From positions 1 to 36,983 of the IMG/VR virus record IMGVR_UViG_3300006919_000159: DNA of 36,983 nucleotides. One strand, given 5' to 3'. A program made the position numbers and the translations under genes. Of this stretch, positions 9,740 through 36,983 are shown in pieces. The DNA is from a virus. Position 1 is the stretch's first letter, and every line of letters begins with the position of its first letter. Below the pieces are notes generated by a model. The model was not told where the DNA came from, searched no databases, and was given only the letters and a program-made list of their open reading frames with translations.

Positions 9740-9771
9740 TTATTTTTGATAGAAATTAAGACAATTGCAAG

Positions 9772-9780
9772 TGATATGAT
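9772..9780 (+). promoter_or_regulatory. Extended -10 promoter candidate
   Basis: TGATATGAT fits an extended -10 element. No clear -35 is present. It would give the regulator-integrase operon its own start about 120 bases ahead of the 9908 ATG. Confidence 0.3.
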
Positions 9781-9907
9781 AAATGTAAGACATTACATTC
9801 TGAAACAAAACGCACACATAGGGGTGCCAGGAACTTTTGCAGAGAGTTTCATGATAAGAACAACTGCTATCCATAACATTTGCCTAACTAAAACAAAGGA
9901 GCAATCA

Positions 9908-10255
9908 ATGGCTAACTTCGGTGAAGTAATGTCAAAGTTTTATAAGTTGGGTAGAAACAAAGGGATGGATAATGGTTTGTACCTACACACTTTGATGTTA
10001 TTCCATTCGATGTGTCACCTTAAAGAAGGGGAAATGTCGGTGGAAAATGCAAACAAAAAGTTCGCAGATTTATATGGAACTTTTTTAAACTCTGCATCAA
10101 TGAGTAGAAATTGTGCAGTGTTAGTAAAACTAGGCTTAATAAAACTTTCAGAAAGTGTGCAAGACAGAAGACAAAAAGATGTCATGCTTACTACTGTAGG
10201 TCATAAGTATAAGAGCCTATTCAGCAACATACCTAAAGCAAAGGAGGCTATATAA
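9908..10255 (+). CDS. MarR-like winged-helix regulator candidate
   Basis: 115 aa from the ATG at 9908, chosen because AAAGGAG lies 6 bases upstream; the frame is open back to a TTG at 9746 with no ribosome site. Residues about 20-105 fit a MarR-type winged helix: helices LYLHTLMLFHSM and ANKKFADLYGTF, a recognition-like helix SASMSRNCAVLVKLGLI, then a basic wing SVQDRRQKDVMLTTVGHKY resembling the MarR 'D.RD.R...V.LT..G' pattern. MarR proteins bind short palindromes as dimers, and such dyads surround this gene. It lies 1 base before the integrase, so the two are probably one operon. It could set the lysis/lysogeny choice; that is inference. Confidence 0.55.
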   Translation: MANFGEVMSKFYKLGRNKGMDNGLYLHTLMLFHSMCHLKEGEMSVENANKKFADLYGTFLNSASMSRNCAVLVKLGLIKLSESVQDRRQKDVMLTTVGHKYKSLFSNIPKAKEAI

Positions 10256-10256
10256 T

Positions 10257-11297
10257 ATGGGTATAAGCAAGACGAGTAATGGCAAGTTCAGAGTATTCGT
10301 ATCAGTAAAAGGTAGAGGTAGAAAAACTGCTACTTGTGATACGCATGATGATGCTCTTGCAAAAGAAGAAACGCTTCGTAAAGCTTTAATTGATGGTAAG
10401 AATGTACCAGCAGGAAGAGCAACTACTGAAGCAACATTAGAGCAGGCTTGTGAAGCTTGTTATAATGACCCAGAGAGTGGGTGGAAAGATACTGAACATG
10501 GTAAAAGACAAAAATACTTCTTCAGTTATTTCTATTCCTTTTGGGGTAAAGATAAGCTGTTAAGAGAAATAGATAAAACTGAATGGTATAAGTTTATTGA
10601 GCAGTTCTCTGATACAGCTACAAATAATAGAAGGGCTTGTTGTATAAACAAAGTGTTTAGACATGCTTTTGAACAAGGTACTATAACAGGAGATAAATTG
10701 TTAAAGATACCTAGAAAAAAAGAAAAGCTAACAAGGCTTGCTATTTATACATACGAGCAAGAAGAAGCTATCTATCAACAGTGTAAAACTTTTGGTTTCC
10801 ACGACTTGGAGGACTTTGTAAAAGTTCTTATTGATACAGGTTGTCGAGCAGAAGAAGCTATTAAGTTTGCGCCAAAGGATTTGCAAAAGAATAAAGATGG
10901 TTGGACAGCTCATGTGTATAGACAAAAGACTGACACTCATACTTCGATTGGTCTAGCTACTAGAACAAAAGAAATATTGATGCGTAGGTCTAACATGAAA
11001 ACATTCTTTGAGACCAGCTACAGGCAAATGACTTACAAGTGGCAGATGGTAAGACAGCAACTTGGACAAGCTGATAACAAAGACTTTGTTTTCCATACCT
11101 GTAGACATACTTGTGCTTCAAGGCTAGCTGAAGCAGGAGCTACATTTATGGAAGTTTGTGACTGGATGGGATGGAGTTTTAATTCACCTGTTGCAAGAAG
11201 ATATGTTCATTTCTTTCCTAAAGGTAAGATAAGTATGGCAAAGAAACTGGATACATTAAGAGACGAGTTAAAAGTTGTCTCTGGTGGTAAAAGCTAG
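10257..11297 (+). CDS. int: Tyrosine-type phage integrase
   Basis: 346 aa. The N-terminal region (about 1-50) resembles an arm-binding domain, residues 55-160 a core-binding SAM-like domain, and 165-330 the catalytic domain. Catalytic residues visible are R197 (CRAEEA), H280 and R283 (HTCRH), a Trp in the usual third His/Trp position (WMGW), and the nucleophile Y316 (ARRYVHF). AAGGAGG lies 9 bases before the ATG. Integrases of this type insert phage DNA into host tRNA genes in known pelagiphages; the attachment site is not identifiable here with confidence. All expected residues are present, so the enzyme looks active and the phage potentially temperate. Confidence 0.93.
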   Translation: MGISKTSNGKFRVFVSVKGRGRKTATCDTHDDALAKEETLRKALIDGKNVPAGRATTEATLEQACEACYNDPESGWKDTEHGKRQKYFFSYFYSFWGKDKLLREIDKTEWYKFIEQFSDTATNNRRACCINKVFRHAFEQGTITGDKLLKIPRKKEKLTRLAIYTYEQEEAIYQQCKTFGFHDLEDFVKVLIDTGCRAEEAIKFAPKDLQKNKDGWTAHVYRQKTDTHTSIGLATRTKEILMRRSNMKTFFETSYRQMTYKWQMVRQQLGQADNKDFVFHTCRHTCASRLAEAGATFMEVCDWMGWSFNSPVARRYVHFFPKGKISMAKKLDTLRDELKVVSGGKS

Positions 11298-11348: not shown

Positions 11349-11435
11349 GAGGAGGCGTAAGTGAATAAGTTAAGTAAACCAACACAAAAAAATTTGTCGG
11401 TAGACTTAAAAACTACGAACACAATTTACGCCTCC
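11349..11435 (+). promoter_or_regulatory. Ribosome site that can be hidden by a downstream perfect inverted repeat
   Basis: GAGGAGG (11349-11355) is an excellent ribosome site for the GTG at 11361. GGAGGCGTAA (11351-11360) is perfectly complementary to TTACGCCTCC (11426-11435), which lies within the short frame it would translate. The RNA could therefore switch between an open and a sequestered start. Confidence 0.4.
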
Positions 11436-11525: not shown

Positions 11526-11530
11526 TAGAT

Positions 11531-11546
11531 GTGCACTTCAATGCAC
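11531..11546 (+). promoter_or_regulatory. GTGCAC dyad, copy 4
   Basis: GTGCACTTCAATGCAC lies 5 bases after operator-like copy 6 in the leader of the RNA polymerase genes. Confidence 0.4.
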
Positions 11547-11585
11547 ACAATCTACGAACAAACTGTAAACACTAATGAGGTTAAT

Positions 11586-12566
11586 ATGGAAATAGACGCT
11601 AAAATATTAGAGAAATTTAACATTCTTAAAAAAGACGAGAATGTGCCTTCAACTCTTCATGAAAAAATAGAGGCAGAAAAACAGTTAGAACTAGCAATGA
11701 TTAAGAGTGGAATAAAAAGGTTCCATAAAACAATCAATAAAGCTAGAGCCAAAGTCAAAGAAAAAGATGGCAAGCAAAGAGAGACCACTGAAAGTACAAC
11801 AGTATATGGTCAAGTCTTAATTCAAAGTGGCCTGGAGCCAATGAATAAAGCTATTAATAAATACTTCATAGAAGCATTTGATGGCCATGCTAAACGCTAT
11901 GCAACAGAAGCTACATTGTTAGCTAAATGTTTACCTATTAAGGAAGTCCAAAATGATAATGATGAAAGATGGGCTAGTTTAAGCTTCATATCTTTGAAGG
12001 CAGTATTAGATAGTATTACTGTCTCATCCACACAAACAAAAGCTGTGCTTAAAATAGCTGGAGCTGTAGAGGATGAAGCTAGATTATTATACTTTAGGGA
12101 AAGTGATAATAAGACTTACAGCCAGACTAAAGAATGGCTGAAAACCAAGAACAACTATAGGCATAAAAGGAAGGTATTCCAATATGCTATGAATAAACAC
12201 CAGCTTGAGTATGCAGGTTGGTCTAAAGAAGAGAGGGTAAAACTCGGTAAATTACTCCTTGAATTATTAGCCAGTACAACTGGGTTTGTTAAACTCACCA
12301 GAACATACACTCTCAAAAATAAATCAATTGTTTATGTCCAGGCCACCGACAAGACTATGGAATGGATAGAACAAAAGAAAATCCACGCAGAAATATTAAA
12401 ACCTTTTAGAGAACCTATGCTGGTACGACCTAAAACCTGGGATGAAAACCCATATTCTGGTGGCTATTACATCAAGGATTTAAGGCCAAAGGAATTAAGT
12501 GCCACTGTAGGAGAACTCCACAATCAAAATCAACAATCTAACAATGAGGTAAAAGATGCACTATAA
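11586..12566 (+). CDS. T7-type RNA polymerase, separate N-terminal subunit
   Basis: 326 aa from the ATG at 11586, chosen for the GAGG 5 bases upstream; an ATG at 11529 is in frame but has no ribosome site. It matches the T7 RNA polymerase N-terminal domain (promoter binding and melting): residues around AGAVEDEARLLYFRE resemble T7 IGRAIEDEAR; TTGFVKLTRTY resembles STGMVSLHR; and KTWDENPYSGGYYI resembles KPWTGITGGGYW. The protein then ends in about 22 polar residues (LHNQNQQSNNEVKDAL) with no T7 counterpart. The catalytic half is the next, overlapping gene in the +1 frame. The two presumably assemble into one enzyme. Confidence 0.85.
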   Translation: MEIDAKILEKFNILKKDENVPSTLHEKIEAEKQLELAMIKSGIKRFHKTINKARAKVKEKDGKQRETTESTTVYGQVLIQSGLEPMNKAINKYFIEAFDGHAKRYATEATLLAKCLPIKEVQNDNDERWASLSFISLKAVLDSITVSSTQTKAVLKIAGAVEDEARLLYFRESDNKTYSQTKEWLKTKNNYRHKRKVFQYAMNKHQLEYAGWSKEERVKLGKLLLELLASTTGFVKLTRTYTLKNKSIVYVQATDKTMEWIEQKKIHAEILKPFREPMLVRPKTWDENPYSGGYYIKDLRPKELSATVGELHNQNQQSNNEVKDAL

Positions 12567-14292
12567 TATGATTAAGAGAGGAACTAGGACTTACCTAGAA
12601 GAAATGGCTAACAAAGCCCATGAAATGCCAGAGGTTTATAAATGTATAAATACTCTGCAACAAACACCTTTTATAATTAACACTCCAGTATACCAGGTGA
12701 TGAAAACGATACAGGACAAAGGATTGTCTGTAGCTGGTTTACCACAAGGTAAACTTCCACTTCCACCTAAACCATTTGATATAGCAACAAATGAAGAAGC
12801 TAGGAAAGCCTACAGCAGGAAGGCACTAGCTGTTCATAATTATAATGCAACAATAGATAGTAAGGCTTTACTTACTGAAAAAATATTTACTGTTGCTGAT
12901 ACTTATGAAGCGTTTGCTGAATTTTATTTCCCACTTCAATATGATTGGAGAGGTAGAATTTATTGTGTACCAGAAGGACTTAACTATCAGCAGAATGATT
13001 TAGCTAAAGGATTATTATTATTTAGAAATGGTAAACCATTAGAAAATAAAAATAATGTTGAACGATTGATGGTACATGGCGCCAATATGTATGGTCATGA
13101 TAAAGATACATTGGTTAATAGAGTTAAGTGGGTTGAAGATAATGAAAAATTTATTTGTCAATCTGCTGAAGACCCACACAATCATTATGAATTTTGGGCT
13201 GAAGCTTCTGAACCAGTACAATTTTTATCATTCTGTTTTGAATGGAATAACTTTGTTAAAGCTGGAAAGAAATTATCATTTATAACTAATGTAATTTGTT
13301 ATTCTGATTGTACTAATTCTGGATTACAAATATTTTCTGCATTACTAAAAGATGAAGCTGGTGGTAAAGCAGTTAATCTAGTTCCATCTGCTAAAGTTCA
13401 AGATGTATATGCTGAAGTTGCTAAAGCAACATTGGAATTATTACATCAAGAACCAGATAGTCAGCTAAAAGATATATGGTTGAAGTATGGAATAGACAGG
13501 AAGACTACAAAGAAAGTCACAATGTGTATTGTATATGGACTAACTCAATTCTCTTGTAGAAGATATATTCAAGAACACCTGGAGGAAATGGATGAAGATG
13601 GTACAAAAGATAATCCATTTTCAACAGACAGAAATCCAATACCAGGACAACCTAATATGTTTAAAGGTTCTGCGTATTTATCTAAATTAGTTTGGAAAGC
13701 TTTAGATAGAGTTATTGTATCTGCTAAAGAAGCGATGAAGTGGTTGCAACAAACTTCTAAATTAGTTTCAGAGAATGGTTTACCAGTTGTGTGGACTACA
13801 CCTACAGGGTTTATAATTCAAATGGTATGTCCAATATTAGAAACTAAAAGAATAAATACTTATATGGGTGAAAAAATATTCAGACCAAAATCTGGAACCT
13901 ATACACCAGATATAAGAAAAACATCTATAGCAATTGAGACTAATAAAATTAACAAAAGCAAAGTAGCTAATAGTATAGCTCCTTGTTTTGTTCATGGATT
14001 AGATGGCGCTATCCTTCAAAGAGCAGTGTGTAAAGCTAATGATTATGGGGTGAATAACTTTGCCTGTGTTCATGATAGCTTTGGTGTTCTAGCAACAGAT
14101 GTGAACCTAATGAACCAAGCTGTAAGAGAAGCTTTTGTAAATATTTTTGATGGTAAAAATTTACTTGAGGAATTTAAACAAGAGATAATCCCACAAGTTC
14201 ACAAAGATAGTAGAGACAAAGTTAAGCAAGCTCCAGCACAAGGTTCGTTGGAGTTGAAGAATGTATTAGGTAGTTATTATTTTTGTTCTTAA
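12556..14292 (+). CDS. T7-type RNA polymerase, separate catalytic subunit
   Basis: 578 aa. It begins (IKRGTRTYLEEMANKAHEMPEVYKCIN) just where T7 reads RTHSKKALMRYEDVYMPEVYKAIN, and continues to the C-terminus. Palm and fingers residues are intact: D251 (T7 D537), R315 and K319 (T7 R627, K631), Y327 (T7 Y639), and D507 in VHDSFG (T7 D812). The promoter-specificity loop region and SIAPCFVHGLDG are present; the end YYFCS differs from T7 FAFA. GAGG (12546-12549) lies 6 bases before the ATG, so it has its own initiation site inside the upstream gene's last codons. The frame is closed by TAA at 12550, so an unsplit product would need a +1 shift within 12553-12566. Confidence 0.9.
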   Translation: MHYNMIKRGTRTYLEEMANKAHEMPEVYKCINTLQQTPFIINTPVYQVMKTIQDKGLSVAGLPQGKLPLPPKPFDIATNEEARKAYSRKALAVHNYNATIDSKALLTEKIFTVADTYEAFAEFYFPLQYDWRGRIYCVPEGLNYQQNDLAKGLLLFRNGKPLENKNNVERLMVHGANMYGHDKDTLVNRVKWVEDNEKFICQSAEDPHNHYEFWAEASEPVQFLSFCFEWNNFVKAGKKLSFITNVICYSDCTNSGLQIFSALLKDEAGGKAVNLVPSAKVQDVYAEVAKATLELLHQEPDSQLKDIWLKYGIDRKTTKKVTMCIVYGLTQFSCRRYIQEHLEEMDEDGTKDNPFSTDRNPIPGQPNMFKGSAYLSKLVWKALDRVIVSAKEAMKWLQQTSKLVSENGLPVVWTTPTGFIIQMVCPILETKRINTYMGEKIFRPKSGTYTPDIRKTSIAIETNKINKSKVANSIAPCFVHGLDGAILQRAVCKANDYGVNNFACVHDSFGVLATDVNLMNQAVREAFVNIFDGKNLLEEFKQEIIPQVHKDSRDKVKQAPAQGSLELKNVLGSYYFCS

Positions 14293-17768: not shown

Positions 17769-19532
17769 ATGAGATTAATATTTGATATAGAAACAAATGG
17801 TTTCTTATCAGAAGCAACTAAAATTCATTCAATTGTTATTAAGGACATAGATACCGAACAAATGTATTCCTATCATGGAGACAAAATCGGTAAAGGTTTA
17901 TATCTTTTAAGTGGTGCTAGCTTGTTAGTTGGCCACAACATTTTAAAATTCGATATACCTGTCATTAATAAATTATATCCAGAATATAAAATTGAAGGTG
18001 ATGTATTTGATACATTGTTAGTTAGCAGACTGATATGGACTAATAGAAAAGAACTAGACTTTCGAATGAAAGAACTGCCATTAAAATTAGCAGGAAGACA
18101 TTCATTAGAAGCCTGGGGTTATAGACTTGCTTTAAGAAAAGGTGAGTTTGCTAAAACAAATGACTTCGCAAATTGGTCTGAAGAAATGCAAAAGTATTGC
18201 GAACTAGATGTTGAAGTCACTTATGAATTTTGGAAATTAATACAAAAACAAAACTACTCGCAAGAGGCTATTAAGTTAGAACACGACTTTGCCAGATGTA
18301 TATATCTGCAAGAAGCACATGGATTTCATTTTGATGTGGCTTCTGCAAAGAAGCTGTATGCCTCACTTGCAAACAGAAGGTTGGAGTTAGAGAAATCTTT
18401 AACTTCAGCCTTCCCTAAATGGAACAAGTATATTGGTACCTTTATTCCTAAAAGAGATAATAGAACTTTAGGTTATAAAAAAGATGTACCAATTAAAAGG
18501 TATAAGGAAATAACTTTCAATCCTAACTCAAGAGACCATATCAGTGACAGATTAATGGACAAAGGTTGGAAGCCAAAAGAATTTACGCCAGATGGAAAAC
18601 CAAAAGTAGATGAAAGTATTTTATCTACATTAACTTTTCCAGAGGCAAAATTATTATCAGAACATTTTTTAATACAAAAACGAATAGGTCAATTAGCTGA
18701 AGGCAATAACGCCTGGCTAAAATTACAAAGGGATGGAATTATATATGGAAGCGTTATCACGAATGGTGCAAACACTGGGAGGTGTACTCACCAAAAACCT
18801 AATGTTGCACAAACACCTTCTGTTGGTGTTCCTTATGGTAAAGAATGTAGGTCTTTATTTATTGTTCCTGCTGGCTTTCGTCTTATTGGCTGTGATGCTA
18901 GTGGTCTTGAACTTCGTTGTCTTGCTCATTATCTCGGTGCTTTCGATGAAGGTAGTTTTGCGAAGCAATTACTCGATGGGGATATTCACACCTACAATCA
19001 AAAACAGATTGGCTTACCAACGAGAGATATGGCGAAGAGGGTTATATATGGTATCATCTATGGCATCGGAGATACGAGGCTTGGTGAAGTTGTTGGAAAG
19101 AGCTCCAAAGAAGGAAAAAGAATAAAAGCAAATTTATTTAAAGCTTTACCTGCGTTAAAACAATTAAGAGATAATGTTATTATCGCAACAAGAAATAAAA
19201 ATTATTTATTAGGTTTAGACAAAAGAAAATTAATTCCAAGGTCTGAACATTCAAGTTTAAATTTATTAATACAAAGTTGTGGCGCATTAATTATAAAAAT
19301 GGCCACAATAATTTTACACAAAAAATTAAAGGAAAAAAATTATGATAAAGATACCTGTGCTATGGTTGCTCATGTTCATGATGAGCTACAACTTCAGTGT
19401 AAGTCTGCTGTTGCAGATGAAGTAGGAACTTTAGCAGTTCAATCAATTAAAGAAGCAGGTACTCATTTTAATTTACGATGTGAATTAGATGCTAAATATA
19501 AGATAGGCAACAACTGGGCTGATACCCATTAG
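17769..19532 (+). CDS. DNA polymerase, family A (T7 gp5-like)
   Basis: 587 aa (T7 gp5 has 704). The 3'-5' exonuclease has D6 and E8 (DIETNG), GHNILKFD and YCELDVEVT. The polymerase has motif A CDASGLELR (D376), motif B R419-K423-Y427-Y431, and motif C HVHDE (D538, E539). Y427 matches T7 Tyr526, the tyrosine form. The loop between FPKW and FNPNSRDHI, where T7 holds its thioredoxin-binding segment, is about 38 residues shorter, so dependence on host thioredoxin is doubtful. A hairpin (19508-19539) and the opposite-strand tRNA follow the stop. Confidence 0.95.
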   Translation: MRLIFDIETNGFLSEATKIHSIVIKDIDTEQMYSYHGDKIGKGLYLLSGASLLVGHNILKFDIPVINKLYPEYKIEGDVFDTLLVSRLIWTNRKELDFRMKELPLKLAGRHSLEAWGYRLALRKGEFAKTNDFANWSEEMQKYCELDVEVTYEFWKLIQKQNYSQEAIKLEHDFARCIYLQEAHGFHFDVASAKKLYASLANRRLELEKSLTSAFPKWNKYIGTFIPKRDNRTLGYKKDVPIKRYKEITFNPNSRDHISDRLMDKGWKPKEFTPDGKPKVDESILSTLTFPEAKLLSEHFLIQKRIGQLAEGNNAWLKLQRDGIIYGSVITNGANTGRCTHQKPNVAQTPSVGVPYGKECRSLFIVPAGFRLIGCDASGLELRCLAHYLGAFDEGSFAKQLLDGDIHTYNQKQIGLPTRDMAKRVIYGIIYGIGDTRLGEVVGKSSKEGKRIKANLFKALPALKQLRDNVIIATRNKNYLLGLDKRKLIPRSEHSSLNLLIQSCGALIIKMATIILHKKLKEKNYDKDTCAMVAHVHDELQLQCKSAVADEVGTLAVQSIKEAGTHFNLRCELDAKYKIGNNWADTH

Positions 19533-19539
19533 GTTGTTG
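19508..19539. terminator. Bidirectional hairpin between DNA polymerase and tRNA-Leu
   Basis: CAACAAC (19508-19514) pairs perfectly with GTTGTTG (19533-19539), with TGGG/CCCA inside. It spans the polymerase stop and, on the minus strand, lies directly 3' of the tRNA, so it could end or process tRNA transcripts. Confidence 0.4.
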
Positions 19540-19816
19540 GTGCCCTCGGCCAGACTCGAACTGGCACTCCCAAAAGGGCAAGGATTTTCTTACCACTATA
19601 GCTTTCGCTACGCTTACGCTTTGTGGTCTGGACTATACCTTCTCCATTTTACAGGAGCCTGCTGTCTAGTCTCTACACCTTACATCACTCGAATGTCTTG
19701 GCTCGGTATTAGCAGTTAAGCTTTCACCGAATTTAACAAGTTCTACTTTTAAGCTTTCGCTTAAAGCACTCAAATTTAATTAAGTCCTTTGTGTCTACCA
19801 ATTTCACCACGAGGGC
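19538..19816 (-). tRNA. tRNA-Leu(UAA) split by a group I intron
   Basis: 5' exon 19816-19782 and 3' exon 19588-19541 plus encoded CCA (19540-19538). Spliced length is 83 nt plus CCA. The acceptor stem GCCCTCG/CGAGGGC is a perfect 7 bp. The D-arm is GTG...CAC; the anticodon stem AAGGA/TCCTT holds loop CTTAAAA with anticodon UAA; a long class II variable arm (CCC TTTT GGG) follows; the T-arm is GCCAG TTCGAGT CTGGC. Every element is intact, so it should be functional. UUA is the main leucine codon of this phage, which would explain keeping it. It is the only minus-strand gene seen. Whether the source is host, plastid-like or phage is unknown. Confidence 0.93.
19589..19781 (-). ncRNA. Group I self-splicing intron (193 nt) in tRNA-Leu
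   Basis: The intron sits between U34 and A35, begins AATTAAATTTGAG and ends in G, the exact position and start seen in cyanobacterial/plastid tRNA-Leu(UAA) introns (group IC3). P1: exon ACUU pairs with GAGU, leaving the splice-site U-G wobble. P2 and P9 both carry GAAA tetraloops (GCGAAAGC). Core elements: P AATTCGGTGAAA (19733-19722), Q AATACCGAGCC (19710-19700), R GTAGAGACTAGACA (in 19679-19657), S AAGGTATAGTCC (19641-19630). P4 is CGGU/ACCG and P7 GACUA/UAGUC. There is no reading frame, so no homing nuclease. At 193 nt it is about as small as natural group I introns get. Confidence 0.92.
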
Positions 19817-19841: not shown

Positions 19842-19850
19842 ATTATATCA
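19842..19850 (-). promoter_or_regulatory. Extended -10 promoter for the tRNA-Leu gene
   Basis: On the minus strand TGATATAAT is a perfect -10 with a TGn extension, about 26 bases upstream of the tRNA 5' end. No good -35 is seen. Host RNA polymerase could thus express the tRNA independently of phage transcription. It overlaps the start codon of the next + strand gene. Confidence 0.55.
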
Positions 19851-35200: not shown

Positions 35201-35851
35201 AAAATATTAAATGACCCATTCTTAAGAGAAACTGAAGGGTTTATGCAAGCATTTCAAAAAAGATTAGGTGGAGTAGGTTTACCTAAAACTTACAATGTAT
35301 TAGGTGAAAGTATTGTGGATAGCACTAATGCTCCAGGTAGATTATTTAATAATTTATTTAATCCTTTTACTGTTAAGAAACAAAAAGATGATGAAGTATT
35401 AAAAGCTTTTATTAAGCATGAAGTAAATATTCCAGCATTACAGCCAGTTATCAAAGGTATTGATTTAACTCAATTTGTAAATCCAAAGACAGGTAAAACA
35501 GCTTTTGAAGAATATAATGAATTAATAGGTAAATCTGGATTAAGAAAAGATTTAGAGAGAACTATAAAGAGTAGAAGATTTATAGATGCTCCAGACCAAA
35601 TAACATTAGATGAAAATAATAAGTTTGGTGGTAAGAAAGCGATTGTCTACGATAGAGTAAAATTTTACAGAGATTTAGAATTTAATAAAATTCAGTTCTC
35701 TCAAAAGTATGTTTCAAAAATAAATCCAAAAATAACACTTGGCGAAGCCTATATTAATAAAGATATTATTAAGAGAATAGGTAAAGCCACAAATAAATTT
35801 CCTACTGGTATGAAGAGTGGTGTCTATGATTTTATAGACCAGACCAAGTAA
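32222..35851 (+). CDS. Internal virion protein D, DNA ejection protein (T7 gp16-like)
   Basis: 1209 aa (T7 gp16 has 1318). The start VNGMTFPDDYTQEQIDDYFKKLEG is a short motif common at the N-terminus of large ejection proteins. The T7 lytic transglycosylase domain is not visible, so peptidoglycan opening must rely on another activity. Residues about 540-720 (NRFWNRANEVWMSFALSNPKTQIINVVST, split) and the hydrophobic stretch near 830-850 (VGTTILGTISLLNLTGIITGG) resemble the conserved C-terminal region of gp16-type proteins that spans the inner membrane. It is coupled by TAATG upstream. Confidence 0.85.
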   Translation: MAQVVNGMTFPDDYTQEQIDDYFKKLEGNELPAEERKEEDNERGILTDVPVQAVGGVADAGKSALRLIEGVGQDAKRKFNVGGFTFGDNAENGFVQYHTYDDVINNNIKLPVSGDPTVVGDSAFEKAIPDIDDADTATGAVTRSISQFLSGWYLTKPAKGLQMVSGGSKAVNFAKATTRGAVADFVAFDEETGRFMDMVNTQFPSLQNPLFEYLSSEGKDESFYEARLKNAIEGALLGGVMEGTIRGTAPFLKKQLQGFSTWIKLKRKSLGGKNVDNAKLAKIEKELAQQAEENFTASGKKSTQKLISSIIDEASTSEKIAGVVQDIKKTATDDELSKRIVDNFSGYMERVQKGGKTNWRTIDESLDLGLSPRAYADTNFGIIALNAMRKVINAEKKFDVMSTEIIERQATKQGYDIIQTTKMLGQLGNKMEEGLKFMYASQAIQQNIADALYKMSVGLAKGTKEYTENEAKITTALLMRLMRFDDKVASNLGRGLNLRGILKDRNVDLGNDQILNLVRNMDSWNGDFKAFYQGVAQVRDKNMLTRIVDFVFRNRFWNRANEVWMSFALSNPKTQIINVVSTANNLFLRPAQSYVGSKLTWGLDDFTKAQMKEHGEDIAHTVAGYRSYLSDALVFTKKAFNDEDSILFAGSTKFDTNTKALGNSKIAKGIRIPLRGLTAMDEFFKQISYRARLSSISTREAIEKGASQDKIVMQLKDGTKISEFDEMVAKRFRAGFDESGVIALDKEASRFAKEVTFTKELDGVLGYIQRITNEVPIIKQILPFVKTPANLAIQALEMTPLGLVGKNWKHATGTSRDAVRIAEVRGRVAVGTTILGTISLLNLTGIITGGYHPDKEIRRQQQSVGFQPYSIKIGDTYIEYGRLDPIGMLIGLVADYGNIYSDLNDRDREKVENNLLSFLVNQQTGAEEDLEMGNKISNMAIATYKSGFKNIASKTYLKGLVDFVTSFDGNAVDKKGFWWLENKAGSYVPNILGKILNDPFLRETEGFMQAFQKRLGGVGLPKTYNVLGESIVDSTNAPGRLFNNLFNPFTVKKQKDDEVLKAFIKHEVNIPALQPVIKGIDLTQFVNPKTGKTAFEEYNELIGKSGLRKDLERTIKSRRFIDAPDQITLDENNKFGGKKAIVYDRVKFYRDLEFNKIQFSQKYVSKINPKITLGEAYINKDIIKRIGKATNKFPTGMKSGVYDFIDQTK

Positions 35852-35883: not shown

Positions 35884-36983
35884 ATGTCATTTTTAGCAAG
35901 GGTGTCGTATACTGCCAATGGTAGTACAAACACCTTCTCATTTTCGTTTCCATATATCCTAACGAGCCATGTAAAGGCTTATGTAGATGGGGTAGAGGAC
36001 ACTAGCATTACATTCCCTACAGCATCTTCAGTTCAATTGTCATCTACGCCAGCTAATGGAGCTGTAGTTCTTCTTCAAAGAATTACTCCTTCAGATGCTA
36101 GGCTAGTAGATTTCCAAGATGGAAGTGTATTAACTTCATCTGATTTAGACCAATCAGCAGACCAGAATTTTTATTTAGCTCAAGAGACTACAGACAATGT
36201 TGCATCGAAATTAGGACTAGATACTTCAGATAGATTTGATGCTTTAAACAAAAGAATTATAAATGTAGCTAATCCAGTAGACACACAAGATGCTGTCACT
36301 AAAAATTATTTAGAAAACACTTGGTTATCTTCAGCAGACAAAACAGCTTTAACTAATGTAAATAATAATATTGCAAATATTAATGCAGTAAATTCTAACT
36401 CATCTAATATTAATTCAGCAGTTTCAAACGCTACAAATATCAATACAGTTGCAACCAACATTGGTTCAGTAAATACAGTAGCTACAGATATTGCAAAAGT
36501 AATTGCAGTAGCAAATGATTTAGCAGAAGCAGTTAGTGAAGTAGAAACTGTTGCAGATGATTTAAATGAAGCAACTTCAGAGATTGATACAGTCGCAACT
36601 AATATTGCAAATGTAAATACAGTTGGAACTAATATTGCAAATGTAAATACAATAGCACCAATATCAGCTAACATCACAACAGTTGCAGGTATTTCTAGTG
36701 ATGTGACTTCGGTTGCAAACAATGAAACAAATATTAATACTGTAAATTCTAATTCAGCAAATATCAATACAGTAGCAGGTGCAAACTCAAATATAACTTC
36801 AGTTGCAGGTGCTATTACTAATATTAATACAGTTGCTACGAATGTAGCAGGAGTAAACAGTTTCGCTGAAAGATACAGAGTTCAATCTGGTACACCAACT
36901 ACAAGTTTAGATGTAGGAGATTTGGCGTTTGATACAGCTTCAAATACCATGAAAGTCTACTCAAGTGGTGGTTGGATTAATGC
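35884..36983 (+). CDS. Tail fibre, N-terminal part (runs off the window end)
   Basis: The first ~140 residues match the T7 gp17 N-terminal anchoring domain: RVSYTANGSTNTFSFSFPYI, VVLLQRITPSDARLVDFQDGSVL, LDQSADQNFYLAQE, DALNKRIINVANPVDTQDAVTKNYL. Residues about 158-325 are roughly 15 decapeptide repeats of the form TVAxNIxxVN, probably a trimeric shaft. The frame is open at 36983 and continues in phase at base 1 to the stop at 739, giving 612 aa in total. The fibre attaches the virion to its host. There is no ribosome site; P4 lies just upstream. Confidence 0.92.
   Translation, partial: MSFLARVSYTANGSTNTFSFSFPYILTSHVKAYVDGVEDTSITFPTASSVQLSSTPANGAVVLLQRITPSDARLVDFQDGSVLTSSDLDQSADQNFYLAQETTDNVASKLGLDTSDRFDALNKRIINVANPVDTQDAVTKNYLENTWLSSADKTALTNVNNNIANINAVNSNSSNINSAVSNATNINTVATNIGSVNTVATDIAKVIAVANDLAEAVSEVETVADDLNEATSEIDTVATNIANVNTVGTNIANVNTIAPISANITTVAGISSDVTSVANNETNINTVNSNSANINTVAGANSNITSVAGAITNINTVATNVAGVNSFAERYRVQSGTPTTSLDVGDLAFDTASNTMKVYSSGGWIN
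36355..36860 (+). repeat. Decapeptide (30-bp) imperfect tandem repeats in the fibre gene
   Basis: About 15 imperfect 30-base units encode TVAxNIxxVN. The clearest pair is AATATTGCAAATGTAAATAC at 36601-36620 and 36631-36650, identical over 20 bases. Such repeats can change shaft length by recombination and can be mis-assembled. Confidence 0.8.

Follow-up and report, generated by a model that had tools for sequence, protein, structure and literature searches.

The window analysed here, by which we mean the whole stretch of 36,983 bases, is the record of a T7-like podovirus that carries a divided tRNA-Leu(UAA) gene on its minus strand. The split gene as a whole runs from 19816 to 19538, with an intron between U34 and A35. 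The features at this locus are as follows.

17769-19532, plus strand: DNA polymerase of family A, which converges on the tRNA gene and served for the phage tree
19538-19588, minus strand: tRNA-Leu(UAA) 3' exon, 51 nt, with the CCA encoded
19589-19781, minus strand: group I intron, 193 nt, its first base following U34 and omega-G its last, lying inside an attB-like core (Rfam RF00028, covariation, model R1)
19782-19816, minus strand: tRNA-Leu(UAA) 5' exon, 35 nt, ending in U34, of the same sequence as the SAR11 host tRNA
19842-19850, minus strand: candidate promoter of the extended -10 type, TGATATAAT, lying 26 nt upstream of the tRNA, picked out by eye and missed by the promoter scan

When the exons are joined, ARAGORN calls an 86-nt tRNA-Leu(taa), and it calls no tRNA in the unspliced gene. 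The exon junction is confirmed by an intron-free sister allele, the uninterrupted tRNA-Leu(taa) that Chosvirus KM23C739 carries at the same gene position. Both exons are identical to the SAR11 tRNA-Leu(UAA), and the 3' exon is perfectly matched in more than 100 of 397 Pelagibacterales genomes. The promoter scan around the tRNA gave nothing above chance level.

KM23C739 is also the closest described genome (integrase 44%, DNA polymerase 66%). The terminase large subunit (TerL) is 60% identical to that of Pelagibacter phage HTVC011P, and a tail-fibre region shows about 85% identity at the DNA level; the T7-like gene order together with these close marker genes places the virus among the pelagiphages (Autographiviridae, Chosvirus-like). 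The T7-type RNA polymerase occupies two ORFs of 345 and 578 aa (11529-14292), as it does in KM23C739 and HTVC025P. The two ends of the window, 1-739 and 35884-36983, both fall within tail-fibre-like ORFs, so the record probably represents an entire genome opened inside this gene.

The intron fold and its relatives

An alignment of 33 non-redundant related introns shows a complete group I fold, with P1, P2, P3, P4-P6, P7, P8 and P9 and the P3/P7 pseudoknot. P1 is ACUU/GAGU with the U-G pair at the 5' splice site and omega-G stands at the 3' end, such that all the elements by which a group I intron is recognised (P1 U-G, P3/P7 core, P4-P6, P8 and omega-G) are present. The 54 pairs of the fold are formed in 98.7% of the cells of this alignment, and two-sided changes involve 27 pairs and 292 cells, compared with 80 +/- 9 in shuffles and 25-54 in slid controls. 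A covariance model built from the alignment, R1, scores the window intron at 228 bits and recovers both the held-out intron of Agrobacterium phage Atu_ph07 (185.6 bits) and an intron in SAR11 genome G156 (220.9 bits). Its second match in the window, at 35566-35641 with 17 bits, was judged to be chance. The Rfam model RF00028 (Intron_gpI), which an earlier note on this DNA had proposed as a check, matches the window with 52.5 bits (E 7e-12), above its gathering cut-off of 50 bits. Sequence, coordinates, Rfam score and covariation thus agree with that note in placing a 193-nt group I intron between U34 and A35, and we regard it as virtually certain that this tRNA-Leu(UAA) gene is interrupted by such an intron. 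No significant ORF was found within the 193 nt, and active homing of an intron without one was dropped as an explanation.

At least some 20 SAR11-phage contigs have this intron at the identical insertion point in tRNA-Leu(UAA), and it also occurs in that gene in SAR11 genome G156. The family extends to large freshwater phages, to Atu_ph07 and to one 735-kb uncultured phage, again with this position in the gene. Cyanobacterial tRNA-Leu(UAA) introns score 95-129 bits with R1 and share the identical insertion (ACTT/...G/AAAATC), as the earlier note had said of their site; judged from its sequence, the window intron is a short member of this known family and homologous to the cyanobacterial intron. 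The note's further statement that other bacterial group I introns sit in other tRNAs needs some qualification, since tRNA-Leu introns occur in Thiomargarita and Beggiatoa, outside the cyanobacteria (PMC4853749), and in Noviherbaspirillum.

Two further groups of relatives came to light. In large freshwater phage contigs (L051, L061, L090, L092, L122 and similar ones) the intron sits in tRNAs with a UAA anticodon, several of which combine a Gln-like D arm with a short variable loop. Many Omnitrophota, and a small number of other bacteria, have a related intron in genes that resemble initiator tRNAs (L178, L181-L184, L187-L189, L191-L197).

Integration into the host tRNA gene

Some 8 kb away from the tRNA, the window holds an integrase gene and a putative attachment site.

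9746-10255, plus strand: ORF adjoining the integrase, with a weak MarR-like match under the Pfam cut-off
10257-11297, plus strand: tyrosine recombinase (integrase), 346 aa (Pfam PF00589, E 1.3e-12; PHROG integrase, E 5.8e-38)
11351-11435, plus strand: attP region, with a 10-bp inverted repeat GGAGGCGTAA/TTACGCCTCC at 11351-11360 and 11426-11435
11400-11403 and 11413-11416: inverted repeat GTAG/CTAC around the attP core
11403-11411, plus strand: attP common core GACTTAAAA, 9 bp, equal to the tRNA-Leu(UAA) anticodon loop and present as the sole copy in the genome
11529-12566, plus strand: N-terminal ORF of the T7-type RNA polymerase

The stretch GGTAGACTTAAAAACTACG downstream of the integrase gene includes the core, which corresponds to positions 31-39 of the 86-nt tRNA gene. 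An extended attP with a tRNA half, as in HTVC105P, is absent from the window, which has the 9-bp core only; the 10-bp inverted repeat possibly represents arm-type sites. All relatives with this integrase have a CTTAAAA core upstream of the RNA polymerase ORF, at a distance of 121-134 nt (125 in most).

An attL arrangement, in which a flank and a tRNA 5' half are followed by CTTAAAA and then by phage sequence, is seen in L012, L015 and L048, the last of which also has the intron-bearing tRNA. The attL contig 3300046167_000308 (L012, L203) and the attP contig 3300046170_000172 are 99.1-99.95% identical over 18 kb. Their identity starts at the first base of GACTTAAAA. Upstream of this base, 3300046167_000308 carries the tRNA 5' half and a host flank similar to the corresponding one of single cell AG-895-K10 (SAR11). 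The fact that so close a pair parts at the core indicates that a single phage species occurs in both a free and an integrated state and that it crosses over in the anticodon loop. That the junctions are assembly chimaeras was dropped as an explanation, as the junctions recur in independent contigs and in a single-cell genome. In AT-rich DNA of 37 kb a 9-mer could arise by chance, yet the break of a 99%-identical pair precisely at the core, the two other attL junctions and the presence of both attL and attR in AG-895-K10 leave next to no probability that the core is a coincidence and the tRNA-intron unit an isolated horizontal acquisition.

The exact attR pattern GTAGACTTAAAATCC had 29 matches in viral contigs, none of which continued into a tRNA 3' half, and the evidence for attR comes instead from AG-895-K10 and, less clearly, from G034. 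The host gene of AG-895-K10 survives as two pieces, a 5' half at 64491-64455 and a 3' half at 63156-63106, each of which contains the core. Between them lie a tRNA-Leu(UAA) with the intron and a single small ORF that has no Pfam match, and the whole remnant fits within 1.4 kb. A search of this genome found no intact intronless tRNA-Leu(UAA), such that the intron-bearing gene is the sole complete copy found. We read this as a decayed prophage whose tRNA has been retained since it is needed. In G034 (L312, C1:261688-262154) an intact tRNA-Leu(UAA) is followed about 320 bp on by a 3' half beginning exactly at GACTTAAAA, perhaps another decayed attR.

A comparable arrangement is found in Noviherbaspirillum autotrophicum (L278, C17:4114813-4115393), where a tRNA-Leu 5' half is broken at the anticodon loop, an intron-bearing tRNA-Leu(UAA) lies 270 bp from it, and no intact copy matching the search pattern was found. 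A frame beside the break resembles, by eye, an integrase C-terminus. In G001, G002, G006 and G156 the only tRNA-Leu(UAA) copy found was split or intron-bearing. G262 and L359 were considered as further split genes and rejected, being conventional elements that rebuild the tRNA. The SAR11 tRNA-Leu(UAA) is a hot spot for integration in general, and one genome may hold several 5' halves and islands (L316/G162, C1:86429, 96110 and 98574; L317/G262).

The phage shows a tyrosine integrase with attP nearby, a short core in common with a host tRNA and a host gene rebuilt at neither junction, which are marks of tRNA-dependent lysogeny. The fact that the host gene is split and not rebuilt points to the phage tRNA as its replacement, and we hold with high confidence that the phage integrates into the host tRNA-Leu(UAA) and brings its own tRNA to stand in for it. 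The integrase would recombine the attP core GACTTAAAA with the host anticodon loop, the host gene would be left split after integration, and the phage tRNA-Leu(UAA), which we infer to be expressed in the lysogen, would then supply the cell. The earlier note had seen here a tRNA-intron unit that had moved horizontally; the presence of the intron in many unrelated phages agrees with this, but the picture is incomplete, as the unit is a replacement tRNA with its intron in the crossover core of the integrase.

It could be argued that the tRNA chiefly aids lytic translation, or replaces host tRNA cut by nucleases, and that its link to integration is incidental. UUA is indeed the main leucine codon of the phage (448 of 694 Leu codons), and phage tRNAs can counter host defences that target tRNAs (PMC10264068). 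However, the host already has a tRNA of identical sequence, the isotype is exactly that of the gene the phage destroys, the tRNA gene is opposed in direction to its flanking genes, and little besides the tRNA is left in the decayed insertion, all of which makes this explanation very improbable.

Possible roles of the intron in the spare tRNA

Group I introns are commonly regarded as neutral parasites. In this phage, attP is on the plus strand and the tRNA on the minus strand, and the intron interrupts the 9-bp core between U34 and A35. As the phage exons equal the host gene letter for letter, an uninterrupted copy would be a perfect attB. Given their opposite orientation, recombination between attP and such an intronless spare would flip about 8.2 kb, from the RNA polymerase to the DNA polymerase, and break the spare tRNA. 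The intron would separate the half-sites of the integrase in the DNA and yet leave the RNA by splicing, which we infer to take place in vivo, such that the spare gene would be invisible to the integrase while a normal tRNA product would still be made. We consider it rather probable, from the arrangement of these sequences, that the intron is retained because it shields the spare tRNA, as an attB, from the phage's own integrase.

Relatives without the intron bear on this proposal. Within the phage clade (DNA polymerase at 64% or above), a tRNA-Leu(UAA) occupies the position in every contig that covers it. The anticodon stem is of the host type, AAGGA/TCCTT, in 21 of 21 distinct intron-bearing tRNAs, whereas it is altered in all seven intronless ones (TTGGA/TCCAA, ATGGA/TCCAT, TCGGA/TCCGT, AAGGA/TTCTT). 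An additional intronless phage, L323, has the stem ATGGA/TCCAT and host-like attP arms, AAGG/CCTT. The SAR11 hosts themselves are near-invariant at position 28, with a base other than A in 2 of 297 genomes and T in neither. The association of intron and stem is strong by count (Fisher 8e-7) but comes down to three points on the tree at which intron state changed independently; all three are concordant and a sign test gives p 0.25, so that the association is not phylogenetically significant by itself.

An intact host-type tRNA of the form AAGGACTTAAAATCCTT in phages that have this integrase and this attP would speak against shielding. The intact arm AAAGGACTTAAAATCCTTGCC occurred once in 2.9 million viral contigs, in a tRNA rebuilt (attR) at the edge of a provirus, and the intact 18-nt arm is present in 113 of 147 SAR11 genomes; the outcome of this search is the one shielding predicts. 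In intronless relatives, among them KM23C739 and L011, the tRNA has 7-11 bp of core in common with the attP of the same phage, and for the intronless tRNA-Leu(UAG) of isolate HTVC011P the figure is 12 bp, which suggests that the integrase may discriminate by other means and that partial matches are tolerated in some phages.

The intron could instead, or in addition, guard the spare tRNA against the integrases of other phages or islands, a form of superinfection exclusion. Other integrases do use the SAR11 tRNA-Leu(UAA) (HTVC105P-type, L004, L010, L359), several 5' halves are found in G162 and G262, and there is an archaeal precedent in which introns were proposed to block further invasion (PMC3293823). 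Self-recombination is nevertheless the more immediate hazard, with attP and tRNA in one genome, and although the two ideas are compatible, we give this one rather less than an even chance.

A third possibility is that tRNA-dependent lysogeny is real and the intron a neutral passenger that arrived in a conserved site of the tRNA, spliced harmlessly and without effect on integration. The same family occupies the same tRNA site in cyanobacteria and in phages without sign of this integration, the intron is tolerated at the native loci of G156 and AG-464-G03, and independent changes of intron state are few. A passenger, however, predicts neither altered stems in intronless tRNAs against host stems in intron-bearing ones nor the lack of an intact host-type tRNA in viral contigs, and we think it unlikely.

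Shielding is not the origin of the intron, given that jumbo and freshwater phages carry the same intron without sign of this integration. The intron itself is of greater age and wider occurrence, and was likely co-opted for shielding. At native-looking loci beside NAD kinase and CinA, the intron interrupts the tRNA-Leu(UAA) of G156 (L311, C1:71190-70913) and AG-464-G03 (L279, C7:34843-34571), and no split tRNA halves were found in either. Hosts of this kind should resist integration at tRNA-Leu(UAA).

On balance, we lean slightly towards a general view in which a self-splicing intron acts as camouflage at the level of DNA with the tRNA product unchanged, relatives use compensatory changes of the anticodon stem, and hosts with the intron allele may resist integration. 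If true, this would give a group I intron a function and tie RNA catalysis to phage lysogeny, add SAR11 viruses, whose hosts are the most abundant bacteria of the sea, to the actinobacteriophages in which tRNA-dependent lysogeny is known, and possibly explain the intron-bearing tRNA-Leu(UAA) of some SAR11 genomes. It also raises the general problem of how a replacement tRNA is kept from its own integrase, to which there appear to be two solutions, both testable.

Comparison with known systems

The phage intron shares its insertion point with the homologous intron of cyanobacterial tRNA-Leu(UAA), which, however, measures 225-312 nt and lies in chromosomal genes, compared with 193 nt in the phage. 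We know of no link between the cyanobacterial intron and integration. The phage introns known by 2014 were, according to a review, all in protein-coding genes (PMC3984707); unlike those group I introns, the window intron is in a tRNA and ORF-less.

Archaeal tRNA introns that are brought by integrating elements and proposed to block further invasion are likewise introns acquired where a tRNA gene serves as attachment site, but they are spliced by protein, involve no ribozyme and lie in the integrated host copy rather than in a phage spare (PMC3293823).

HTVC011P/HTVC025P and uv-Fonsiphage-EPL, which integrate in the SAR11 tRNA-Leu(UAG), are related podoviruses with an attP core in the anticodon loop and an own tRNA-Leu that replaces the disrupted one (PMC6811365). 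They differ from the present phage in that the tRNA is tRNA-Leu(UAG), adjoins the integrase and is intronless.

A further close parallel is tRNA-dependent lysogeny as practised by mycobacteriophages (Fionnbharth, cluster L; Guerrero-Bustamante and Hatfull 2024, PMC10865867). As set out in the parts of that report drawn on here, these phages also have a tyrosine integrase, a common core of about 10 bp in a host tRNA that is not rebuilt, and a phage tRNA of the same isotype transcribed against its neighbouring genes. Their tRNA differs from the host gene, being 88% identical to its nearest relatives, whereas the exons of the SAR11 phage equal the host gene, and those parts describe no intron in the phage tRNA, whereas in the SAR11 phage a group I intron splits the core. 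The mycobacteriophage system has been shown by experiment (PMC10865867), whereas the SAR11 phage is known from its sequence alone.
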